Shown here: piece by piece, positions 1 to 42,982 of the stretch
Position numbering within the stretch: position 1 is the stretch's first letter
How the letters are laid out: every line of letters starts with the position of its first letter
Assembly: GCA_021787845.1 (NCBI GenBank)
Contig: JAJYLH010000049.1
Location: 1 to 43,046, forward strand
Origin: Myxococcales bacterium
Lineage (GTDB): Bacteria > Myxococcota > Myxococcia > Myxococcales > JAJYLH01
Direction: 5' to 3'
Length of the DNA: 43,046 nt
Translations under genes and position numbers: made by a program
The notes under the pieces: generated by a model
The model's database searches: none
What the model was told of the DNA's origin: nothing
Seen by the model: only the letters and a program-made list of their open reading frames with translations

Positions 1-473
1 CCCGTCGAGCCCGTCGAGCCCGTCGAACCCGTCGAACCCGTCGAACCCGTCGAACCCGTCGAACCCGTCGAACCCGTCGAACCCGTCGAGCCCGTCGAGC
101 CCGTCGAACCCGTCGATCCCGTCGATCCGGTTGAACCCGTCGATCCGGTTGAACCCGTCGATCCGGTTGAACCCGTCGATCCGGTCGAGCCCGTCGAGCC
201 CGTCGAACCCGTCGAACCCGTCGAACCCGTCGAGCCAGTGGAACCCGTCGAACCCGTCGAACCTGTCGAACCCGTCGAACCTGTCGAACCTGTCGAACCC
301 GTCGAACCTGTCGATCCGGTTGAACCGGTGGAGCCCGTCGAGCCAGTCGAGCCAGTGGACCCCGTCGAACCTGTCGATCCGGTCGAGCCAGTGGAACCCG
401 TCGAGCCCGTCGAGCCCGTCGAACCCGTCGAACCCGTCGAACCCGTCGAGCCCGTCGAGCCCGTCGAGCCGGG
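1..473 (-). repeat. 9-bp tandem repeat encoding (Gly-Ser-Thr)n, about 52 units
   Basis: The unit on the minus strand is GGN TCN ACN and continues past the left edge. Unit variants (GGC/GGT/GGA, TCG/TCA/TCC, ACG/ACC/ACT) are all synonymous in the minus frame. The same changes give Glu/Asp replacements in the plus-strand Pro-Val-Glu reading. This supports translation of the minus strand. The array codes for the C-terminal tail of the tandem ALDH-like protein. Confidence 0.9.
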
Positions 474-39222: not shown

Positions 39223-40326
39223 CTACTTCGCCGCCAGCTCCGCGTCGATGATTTCCTTGAACGCGGAGAACGGTTGCGCGCCCGAGAGCGGCCGCCCGTT
39301 GATGAAGAAGGCCGGCGTCCCGTTGACGTGCGCCGCCTTGCCCGCGGCCAGATCCTTCTGCACGGTCGCCTTGGTCGCCTCGGAATCCAGGCACTTGTCG
39401 AACTTCGCGCCATCGAGCCCGGCCGCCCGCGCCTGCTTCTTCAATCCGGCCGGATCGAGCTGGTCCTGGTTCGCGAACATCGAGTCGTGCATCGCCCAGA
39501 ACTTCCCCTGCTGGTCGGCGCAGGCCCCGGCCTCGGCCGCCACCATCGCGTGCGAATGGAACGGCAGCGGGAAGTAGCGGTAGACGACTCGCACCTGGTT
39601 GCCGTACGCCTGTTCCACCTGCTTCACCGTTTCGGTCGCGCGCTGGCAGAACGGGCACTGGAAGTCCGAGAACTCGACGATGGTCACCTTCGCCGACTTC
39701 GGCCCCACCGCGGGGCCCGTCGCCGCCACCTCCACCCGCGGCACCTTCGCGAGCGGCAGCGAGGTTTTCACGTGGTACTTCGCCTTCAGCTCGTCGAGGA
39801 ACGCCTTCGCGCGGCGCTGCTCCTCTTCCTGCGTCAGCTCGTCGCTCAGCCGGGTCTTGACGTCCTCGAACTTCAGGTCCGGCCGCGACGGCTTGACGAT
39901 GGTGTCGAACGCCTGGCGCAGCTCCTGTTCGGACGGCGGCTTCACCTTGTCCTGGATTTCCTGCTTGATGAGCACCTTGCTGTCGATGCCGCGGGCCTTC
40001 GCCTCCATGTCGACCAGCCGTTCGTCGACCAGCTCCTCGAGCTCCTGCTCGCGCATGTCGTGGACCTTGTTCACGTAGTCCAAGGTCGCGCTGTCCATGT
40101 CGTCGCCGATCTTCTCGTCGACTTCGCCCGCGGTGATCGGGACGCCGTCGACGGTCGCCACGGTCAGCGCCGGGTCGAGGGACACGTCCGGTCCCGCCCC
40201 CCCGCTGGGCTTCGCCGGGACGGCACCGGACACGCTCGGCGAGACGGCGGTCTTGGGCTGATTCTTCGCGCAGGCAGCGGCGACCACGACGGTCGCGACG
40301 GCTAACGTACGGGTGAGCGTCTTCAT
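39223..40326 (-). CDS. Lipoprotein with SurA-N-like region and DsbA-type thioredoxin domain
   Basis: 367 aa from ATG 40326 (GAGGA upstream). Signal MKTLTRTLAVATVVVAAAC with a lipobox. Residues about 50-190 are helical and charged (TVDGVPITAGEVDEKIGDDM, EQELRQAFDTIVKPSRPDL), like the SurA N-terminal chaperone domain. Residues 205-365 are a DsbA/thioredoxin_4 fold: TIVEFSDFQCPFCQRATETV with the redox CPFC, the cis-Pro loop VNGTPAFFINGRPLSG, and C-terminal FKEIIDAELAAK. The DsbA part could make or reduce disulfides in the periplasm. It may serve the Cys-rich lipoproteins at 30644-34755 (inference only). Confidence 0.9.
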   Translation of the reverse strand: MKTLTRTLAVATVVVAAACAKNQPKTAVSPSVSGAVPAKPSGGAGPDVSLDPALTVATVDGVPITAGEVDEKIGDDMDSATLDYVNKVHDMREQELEELVDERLVDMEAKARGIDSKVLIKQEIQDKVKPPSEQELRQAFDTIVKPSRPDLKFEDVKTRLSDELTQEEEQRRAKAFLDELKAKYHVKTSLPLAKVPRVEVAATGPAVGPKSAKVTIVEFSDFQCPFCQRATETVKQVEQAYGNQVRVVYRYFPLPFHSHAMVAAEAGACADQQGKFWAMHDSMFANQDQLDPAGLKKQARAAGLDGAKFDKCLDSEATKATVQKDLAAGKAAHVNGTPAFFINGRPLSGAQPFSAFKEIIDAELAAK

Positions 40327-40447
40327 GGGTCCTCGAGCCCGGCTTCAGGCGGCGAGCGCCCGCTCCGGGAAAAAAGTCGCGGCAGGCTAGGCATGGGTTT
40401 CGCAACCCGTCAAGAGCTGCGCGCATTCCTCGGCACCGCGCCCAGGC

Positions 40448-41200
40448 CGCGCAGCTCCCGATCCGGGCCGCGCAGCTCCCGCTCGACTCCGCGCAGCTCC
40501 CGCTCGACTCCGCACAGCTCTCGATCCGCGCCGCGCAGCGCCCGCTCCACACCGCACAGCTCCCGATCCGCGCCGCGCAGCTCTCGATCCGCGCCGCGCA
40601 GCTCTCGATCCGCGTCGCGCAACTGCCGGTCCACGCCGCGTAGCTCTCGATCCGCGCCGCGTAGCGCCCGACCCACGGCGCACGCCTCCCGATCCACGCG
40701 GCGCAGCTCCCGGTCCACGTCGCCCAGCTCCCGGTCCACGCTGCACAGCTCCTGGTTCACTCCGCGCAGCTCGTGGTCGCTGTTGCGCAGTTAACGGTTC
40801 ACTCCGCGCAGTCAACAGTCCACCTCGCGCAGCTCACGGTCGCTGTTACGCAGTTAACAATCCACCTCGCGCAGCTCGTTGTCCGAGTCGCGCAGCTCAT
40901 GATTGCTGTTGCGCAGTTAACAATCCACCTCGCGCAGCTCATGATCGCTGTTGCGCAGTTAACGGTTCACTCCGCACAGCTCGTTGTCCGAGTCGCGCAG
41001 CTCATGATCGCTGTTGCGCAGTTAACGGTTCACTCCGCGCAGCTCGTTGTCCGAGTCGCGCAGCTCATGATCGCTGTTGCGCAGTTAACGGTTCACTCCG
41101 CGCAGCTCGTTGTCCGAGTCGCGCAGCTCATGATCGCTGTTGCGCAGTTAACGGTTCACTCCGCACAGCTCGTTGTCCGAGTCGCGCAGCTCCCGGTCCT
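40448..41200. repeat. 21-bp minisatellite encoding heptads, with a 63-bp higher-order unit
   Basis: About 36 units of 21 bp, each containing CGCAGCTC or CGCACAGCTC. On the minus strand the units read heptads such as RELRGVD, RELRGAD and RELCGVE, with Leu and Val/Ala at 3-4 spacing, a coiled-coil pattern. The right part (about 40790-41200) is a 63-bp higher-order repeat of three units (GAGCTGCGCGACTCGGACAA, then a HELRDSD-type unit, then GTGAACCGTTAACTGCGCAA). The GTTAAC unit puts TAA in the heptad frame at 40791, 40854, 40917, 40959, 41022, 41085 and 41148, all multiples of 21 apart. The remaining 40327-41283 contains no other gene. Confidence 0.85.
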
Positions 41201-41283
41201 GGATTCCTAGCTCTGGATCCCGGACGCACGCGAGCCGAGGCGTCGCTCGCAACGCCCCGGCCCGCCGCCTTGATCGTGCTGCG

Positions 41284-42585
41284 CTACTTCTTCTTCCTGT
41301 TCTTGCTGGGCTTCGCGGACGAGCCCGACGCCTTGCCGGGGTCGGCCTTTCCGGCGCTCGCGTCACCGGGCGCCGCAGGGGCCGAAGCGTTGTTCGCCTC
41401 AGCCGTCGTGTCTTCCAGGGCGTCGGCGTCGGCGTCTTCGCCGGTGCTCGTCGTGCCAGCCGCGGTTGGCGCGGTCTTGCCGCCGCTGCCCGCGGGAGGC
41501 GCTACTTCTTCGCCGCCACCGGCACTGCCCCCGCCGCCCGCGTTGCCACCGCCACCGCCGTTGCCACCGCCACCGCCGTTGCCCCCGCCGCCCGCGTTGC
41601 CACCGCCACCCGCGTTGCCACCGCCACCCCCACCGCCACCGCTGCCCCCGCCGCCACCACCACCGCCGTTGCCACCGCCGCCGCCCGACTTGGCGGCTTT
41701 CTTCGTGGGATGGAGTGGCTCCGGGATCCCGGACATGGCGAGCGTGAAACCAGCGTCGTCGTTGATCAGGCCCATCGTGGCGCGCGAGATGAAGACCTTG
41801 ATCCAGCGCAGCATCGAGAAGCCGCTGGCGCCGACGTTCTTGCTCTTGGTCCGCCGCGTCTGGACGCGCACGCGCTTCTTTCCGACGACACGCACGAGGC
41901 TCTTCTTCAGGGTGACCGCCTGGTCGATCTCTTCGGAAGAGACGCCGGCGAGGGTCAACAGCGACCCGCGCCCCGGCGCGGCGTTGGTCAGCTTCGTCAA
42001 CGCCGCTTTCACTCCGGTCGACGTGGTGAGGCTTCTCGAATACTTGACGAGCGCGTCGACATCCTTCTTGTTCGTGTCGTCCTCGAGACCGCGCAGCGCC
42101 TTGCGGACCGCTTCGAAGAGCTTGCCGCCCTGGCTGACGACCTGGCGATCGGCCGGCGTAAGGACTTCGGTCCCCGACGTCTCGAGCGGTCGGTCGCCGG
42201 CGGCTTCGTGATCCTGCACGAGGACCTGGCCGGCGGCGAAGAACCCCTGGTCGATTCCTTTCTCCTCCAGAACCGGACGGATGCGCTCGACCGTCGCCTT
42301 GTCGGCGTCGTTCTCTACGGGCCCCGTGAGAAGCACGATCACCGCACCGACCACCGTCGCCAGCATCGCCGGGTCGTCTCTCGACTTCCCGTTCTTCTTC
42401 TTCTTCCTCCTCTTCGTCGCCTCGGCGGCACCCCACTGCCGAAACTCGTCGACCCATTGCCCTTGCGTCTTCACGAACGGGTTCGCCGGCGCCGAACCCC
42501 TACGGGCCCGCGCCCCAGCCGGCGGGTCGTGCGAACCTCTCGGCCCTGATTCCCGACGGGGGCCACCGCCTCCGGTCTTCGCCAT
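41284..42585 (-). CDS. Unknown protein with Gly-rich low-complexity and acidic/Lys-rich tail
   Basis: 433 aa from ATG 42585, with GGAGGAG six bases upstream. A basic, disordered N-terminus (about 1-65) is followed by a region of about 200 aa with a hydrophobic segment (PAMLATVVGAVIVLLTGPV) and helices (FAAGQVLVQDHEAAGDRPL, TEVLTPADRQVVSQGGKLFE, ALVKYSRSLTTSTGVKAAL). Residues about 270-365 are polyglycine with Asn/Ala/Ser, then an Ala/Asp/Thr-rich segment and a Lys tail (KNRKKK). No recognised domain. The composition suggests a scaffold or assembly protein, but there is no direct evidence. It lies beside the 21-bp array. Confidence 0.75.
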   Translation of the reverse strand: MAKTGGGGPRRESGPRGSHDPPAGARARRGSAPANPFVKTQGQWVDEFRQWGAAEATKRRKKKKNGKSRDDPAMLATVVGAVIVLLTGPVENDADKATVERIRPVLEEKGIDQGFFAAGQVLVQDHEAAGDRPLETSGTEVLTPADRQVVSQGGKLFEAVRKALRGLEDDTNKKDVDALVKYSRSLTTSTGVKAALTKLTNAAPGRGSLLTLAGVSSEEIDQAVTLKKSLVRVVGKKRVRVQTRRTKSKNVGASGFSMLRWIKVFISRATMGLINDDAGFTLAMSGIPEPLHPTKKAAKSGGGGGNGGGGGGGGSGGGGGGGGNAGGGGNAGGGGNGGGGGNGGGGGNAGGGGSAGGGEEVAPPAGSGGKTAPTAAGTTSTGEDADADALEDTTAEANNASAPAAPGDASAGKADPGKASGSSAKPSKNRKKK

Positions 42586-42982
42586 GTGTCTCTCCTCCGT
42601 TGCGCTCCGTCGGCCTATTCCTCGGGAGGCGGACCGAATGCTACGCCGACGACACGAGCAGAGCAAGCAATCGAACGTTCTCCTGTCTTTACCGGCACTT
42701 TCCGCCGCCCGCCGCCCGGCATCGTGTTCGCAAACGCCGCGCGTCGGCCCGCCTCGGCACCGTCCCCACGCGCCCCGCGCTGGCTCCCGGCGCGCACCGC
42801 CGGACGCAGGGCTCCGCCGCTCCTGCCCCTCGTCAGCGCAGCCGAGGACGGAACGTGCGACGCGACTCCCATGCCGCTTAGCGGTAGCGGTTAGCCTTAG
42901 CGGGGCCGGAACCGACCGGGTACCGACACGCCGCACGTCGCCCGCCGCGCGTCCGCCTCCCCGACTGCTTGGCTCCTCATCA

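Follow-up and report, generated by a model that had tools for sequence, protein, structure and literature searches.

A 21-bp non-coding tandem array in a Myxococcales genome and unit lengths close to whole DNA turns among intergenic repeats

Introduction

Small dispersed repeats of ca. 20 bp, possibly mobile, have reportedly been described in cyanobacteria by Elhai et al. The tandem array studied here can be likened to them by description only, in that units of ca. 20 bp occur at several loci of one genome; unlike those repeats, the loci of the present family are long arrays of 28 to 36 units. Bacterial intergenic minisatellites, or VNTR loci, also consist of ca. 20-bp head-to-tail units that lie between genes and are homogenised within an array (PMC2884548). 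The present array shares these features, being made of 36 head-to-tail units of 21 bp (thus longer than 9 bp) that are extragenic and free of coding constraint, although one of two automatic gene calls disagreed and scored its left half as coding. Whereas no rule of whole-turn units is known for minisatellites, many unrelated arrays obey such a rule here, and the family of this array occupies three loci with a 63-bp higher-order unit of its own.

The nearest described case is that of the archaeal Borg elements, whose genomes abound in tandem arrays, both within and between genes, the genic units being divisible by three and the intergenic ones mostly not (PMC9879509). Repeats in Borgs are near-perfect and A-rich, and seldom recur at another locus (PMC9879509), whereas the units of the present family are GC-rich and diverged (62 distinct units among 95 in the three arrays) and are common to three loci. 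The word 'helical' is absent from that paper (PMC9879509), and no helical rule is mentioned in it. In Myxococcus xanthus, the DNA-bending nucleoid protein CdbA has direct-repeat sites that are about one helical turn apart and enriched in intergenic regions (PMC7156744). When compared by layout, not by motif, these sites have two half-sites, whereas the arrays described here are long. CRISPR loci differ from the array in that its units are contiguous and its variable columns hold point changes and no unique spacers. Plasmid iterons lie beside a replication initiator, whereas the array here is flanked by a DsbA-like gene and an ORF of no known family, and the repeat family is found at three loci of one genome.

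Results and discussion

Structure of the array and its surroundings

The window, i.e. the whole stretch of 43,046 bp that was analysed, corresponds to an entire contig, C14, in a draft genome of 6.24 Mb and 98% completeness; in a draft assembly, the copy numbers of repeats may be compressed. The sequence read-out showed that positions 40437–41192 contain 36 units, each of 21 bp and free of indels, confirming the array reported in a preliminary description and showing it to be slightly larger. In minus orientation its consensus is GAGCTGCGCGGAGTGGACCGG, in which the CTGCGC core (columns 4–9 of the unit) is conserved and the flanking columns are variable. A decayed 37th unit, GAGCTAGGAATCCAGGACCGG, can be read at the right end of the array (41193–41213, minus strand).

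The preliminary description had divided the minus-strand heptad frame into an open left part and a right part interrupted by seven TAA stops at 63- or 42-bp steps, carried by a higher-order unit. The division was reproduced: in the ELRGVDR frame, the 16 units of the left part (40437–40772, minus strand) are stop-free and the 20 units of the right part (40773–41192, minus strand) are interrupted, but by eight stops, seven TAA and one TGA. TAA heads the units that start at 41150, 41087, 41024, 40961, 40919, 40856 and 40793, and TGA at 40814, so that the stop-to-stop steps are 63, 63, 63, 42, 63, 42 and 21 bp. The 63- and 42-bp steps were therefore correctly noted, while a 21-bp step at the TGA has to be added. 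The higher-order unit is real and is a 63-bp trimer, with a lag-63 identity of 0.86 over the right part. TRF scored 340 for 40442–40772 and 512 for 40930–41192, the latter with a period of 63 and 99% matches.

The array lies between two minus-strand genes. The start of a DsbA/Thioredoxin_4-like gene with a weak SurA_N-like segment (39223–40326) is separated by 110 bp from the array's left end; relatives of its product occur in Acidobacteria, Myxococcales and Bdellovibrio-like bacteria. On the other side, 92 bp beyond the right end, is the stop of an ORF of no known family with a Gly-rich tail (41284–42936), translation of which probably begins at an internal ATG. The Gly-rich tail contains 18- and 54-bp repeats (41502–41690). 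A promoter-like TTGACG was seen by eye on the minus strand at 40410–40415, between the array and the DsbA-like gene, and was not reported by a consensus scan. RNA folding of the array gave z values of −3.7 (minus strand) and −0.1 (plus strand), a weak signal given 20 shuffles and a repeated sequence, and the comparison with RNA families yielded a chance-level match at most.

Paralogous arrays in the same genome

Two paralogous arrays of the 21-bp family were found in the host genome, at positions 88052–88702 of contig C74 (31 units) and 7520–8107 of contig C146 (28 units). The register of the stops is common to the three arrays, which contain 8, 5 and 7 of them, and in 3/3 the stop-free run is at the low-coordinate end. 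The only 21-mer identical between loci is the TAA-bearing TAACTGCGCAACAGCGATCAT, with four copies in the C14 array (one of them at 40941–40961, minus strand) and seven in C146. The right ends of the C14 and C146 arrays are collinear over ca. 3 to 4 units, whereas the flanks of the three arrays showed no convincing homology, only GC-rich matches that were short (43 and 26 bp). The collinear right ends and the common TAA unit between dissimilar flanks thus indicate that array sequence has been copied between loci. Since the stops are in register and the identity across loci is a TAA unit, the stops are founder features of the family and not products of decay. The 63-bp trimer recurs in all three arrays with differing contents, 63 being the best lag in 4/6 segments.

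No match beyond the three arrays was obtained when a 92-base piece of the C14 array was compared with 195 genomes of the phylum, and neither the viral collection (searched by exact pattern) nor the phage collection contained a match to the family. The sole match of the plasmid search, in the Streptomyces plasmid CP109288, was compositional and was rejected as unrelated, being GC-simple sequence with periods of 28 and 130. Matches of a sparse CTGCGC pattern in other genomes were likewise set aside as differently composed repeats or single places outside this family.

Coding capacity of the array

The minus-strand frame had been described as coding for coiled-coil-like heptads. It can be read mechanically, and it contains an ORF of 116 aa with a GTG start (40410–40760), but no convincing protein-level constraint accompanies its eight stops. 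Constraint was evaluated by placing the changes among the 62 distinct units on a minimum spanning tree (84 changes, 46 edges) and comparing all six frames with random placement. The RELRGVD frame had 34 synonymous changes against 26.7 expected (z = 1.8), an excess no better than that in other frames, and in the CTGCGC core the wobble positions were conserved as much as the others. The sole frame that is stop-free in all three arrays is on the plus strand (offset 2) and differs from the heptad frame. It had 16 synonymous changes against 30.2 expected (z = −3.5), a deficit that runs counter to protein constraint. Since synonymous changes reached half of the expected number and the C14 array contains no start codon for it, this open frame was rejected as a real gene. 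The GC contents at the three codon positions of the array ORF were 0.90/0.52/0.83, compared with 0.67/0.42/0.94 for the neighbouring DsbA-like gene, and are unlike those of the genes of the host genome.

A translated search of the genome identified no intact RELRGVD-type repeat protein. It returned the three arrays, weak matches in other repeats and contig C121, where the only significant match in a long open frame was partial (41%) and lay in a different repeat. A minus-strand gene for a heptad coiled-coil protein, whether decaying or active, would account for the 16 open units on the left and for a stop-free run that each of the three arrays has on the same side. Nevertheless, it would have to accommodate stops that the family has in common and in register, a TAA unit as the one cross-locus identity, the unexceptional heptad-frame value and a GC pattern unlike genes, and we consider it very improbable. 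The array was judged to be a non-coding intergenic tandem array. Of the three readings in the preliminary description, a decayed repeat protein gains no support from the in-register stops, the TAA unit common to loci, the frame comparison or the search for an intact gene, no evidence was found for a source of expandable coding repeats, and only a non-coding structural array survives. Because a 21-bp unit is at once seven codons and two turns of the helix long, arrays of this kind are easily mistaken for heptad-repeat proteins, which is a warning for annotation.

Unit lengths of non-coding arrays in the order

Tandem repeats were scanned in 1.15 Mb of the host genome and ca. 0.9 Mb from seven other genomes of the order (ca. 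2 Mb in total), with home-made gene calls in which some genes were missed. In the 1.15 Mb of the host, the long non-coding arrays had periods of 21, 22, 41, 42 or 63 bp, with a single exception of 30 bp. Thirty-two non-coding arrays were available for a test of the period after exclusion of the window array and of all arrays chosen by sequence. Of these, 27 had a period that deviated by no more than 1.05 bp from a multiple of 10.5 bp (null expectation 0.24, p = 7e-13); the whole-turn periods seen were 21–22 and 41–43 bp, and also 31, 63 and 85 bp. When the pitch was fitted freely over 6–16 bp, the peak was at 10.2–10.55. Most of the 41–42-bp units lack strong 21-bp halves, and the rule is therefore not simple dimerisation. 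A 21-bp quantum and a 10.5-bp quantum are not separable with certainty because the periods pile up at 21 and 42. In a control made without gene calling and confined to periods not divisible by three, 12/14 fitted (p = 1e-5). Among the coding arrays, 38/39 had periods at multiples of three, without a helical signal.

The arrays came mostly from two genomes, G000 and G002; each other relative gave one or none, and G005, G007 and G024 gave no qualifying non-coding array. A sample of 80 diverse bacterial loci (750 kb) yielded only six arrays of similar size, and none of these had a period of 22 or 41–43 bp. Outside arrays, a 21-bp signal was masked by leftover codon periodicity, and no signal was present at 22, 41 or 43 bp. 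No motif common to the arrays of the class was found beyond chance. No description of a helical period rule was found in the literature searched, which covered few subscription papers and is thus weak evidence of novelty. Taken at its broadest, the rule could mean that a lineage within the order has a dedicated process or constraint by which intergenic arrays are made or kept only at whole, mostly even, helical turns whatever their sequence, i.e. a class based on geometry. We put this forward tentatively and would sooner doubt than accept it.

The period could also come solely from a duplication process that measures turns, in which case the array would be a neutral minisatellite and the neighbouring genes would be unaffected. 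That unrelated sequences follow one period rule agrees with such a process, as do the 63-bp trimers, which arose in each of the three arrays with its own content, and the 3/14 arrays located in convergent gaps, which have no promoters. On the other hand, coding arrays of the same genomes lack the 10.5-bp signal, although frame selection could hide one. On balance, purely neutral origin seems clearly unlikely.

A possible role of helical phase in the persistence of the array

Divergent gaps were enriched in arrays (7/14 compared with 41/189), but weakly, and dyad symmetry was weakly over-represented in the units of non-coding arrays (mean z of 0.71, compared with 0.05 in coding arrays). Both observations would suit a landing platform, on which sites on the same face of the helix receive a cooperative DNA-binding or DNA-bending protein, either a regulator or a CdbA-like nucleoid protein, that controls the neighbouring promoter or local folding. 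A conserved CTGCGC core between variable flanks at a two-turn spacing, a unit common to three loci and the myxobacterial precedent of CdbA as a helix-phased direct-repeat binder (PMC7156744) point in the same direction. Yet the arrays of the class have no common motif, the unit family is limited to three loci of one genome, and 28 to 36 sites per locus far exceed usual operators. A platform of this kind is a possibility that we rate as somewhat unlikely.

The reading that we prefer, with a probability of roughly 55%, is that the C14 array is an intergenic minisatellite, one of three paralogues, which belongs to a class of sequence-unrelated arrays with whole-turn units and is tolerated or favoured for its helical phase. 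The units of the class span about two (21–22 bp) or four (41–43 bp) turns of B-DNA. The array would gain and lose whole units and 63-bp trimers through slippage or unequal exchange, and each change in copy number would add whole helical turns, so that the flanking elements would keep the same face of the helix. An array could then persist upstream of a gene because the phase of the flanking DNA is preserved. Since the arrays of the class have no common motif, a dedicated binding protein is not needed. The enrichment in divergent gaps and the TTGACG are compatible with such phase keeping, both weakly.

Should complete genomes bear out the period rule, intergenic repeats of this lineage would record a physical constraint, the pitch of DNA, as genic repeats record the codon. 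It would then become possible to ask directly whether duplication measures turns or whether arrays survive by keeping promoters and upstream elements in phase.

Other repeats in the window and the genome

The first end of the contig (window positions 1–467) is filled by a 9-bp tandem array of CCCGTCGAA with ca. 52 copies. Nine-bp arrays of other sequence, e.g. TCGGTCCGA, are common in the sampled genome, and 39 of them were called non-coding. A second dispersed family has a 42-bp unit, which at L306:345–576 (C52) is the reverse complement of the unit at L301:1500–1601 (C68). A 27-unit 21-bp array of different sequence at C81:40151–40713 (L151:6152–6714) is flanked by an MscS-like gene and a divergent gene; it, too, lends itself to a heptad reading and is open in several frames, and the genes neighbouring it and those neighbouring the C14 array were compared and are unrelated. 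At L032:126–333 (C146), a 10-unit 21-bp array carries an AT-rich palindrome, TTCTAGAA, in this GC-rich genome.
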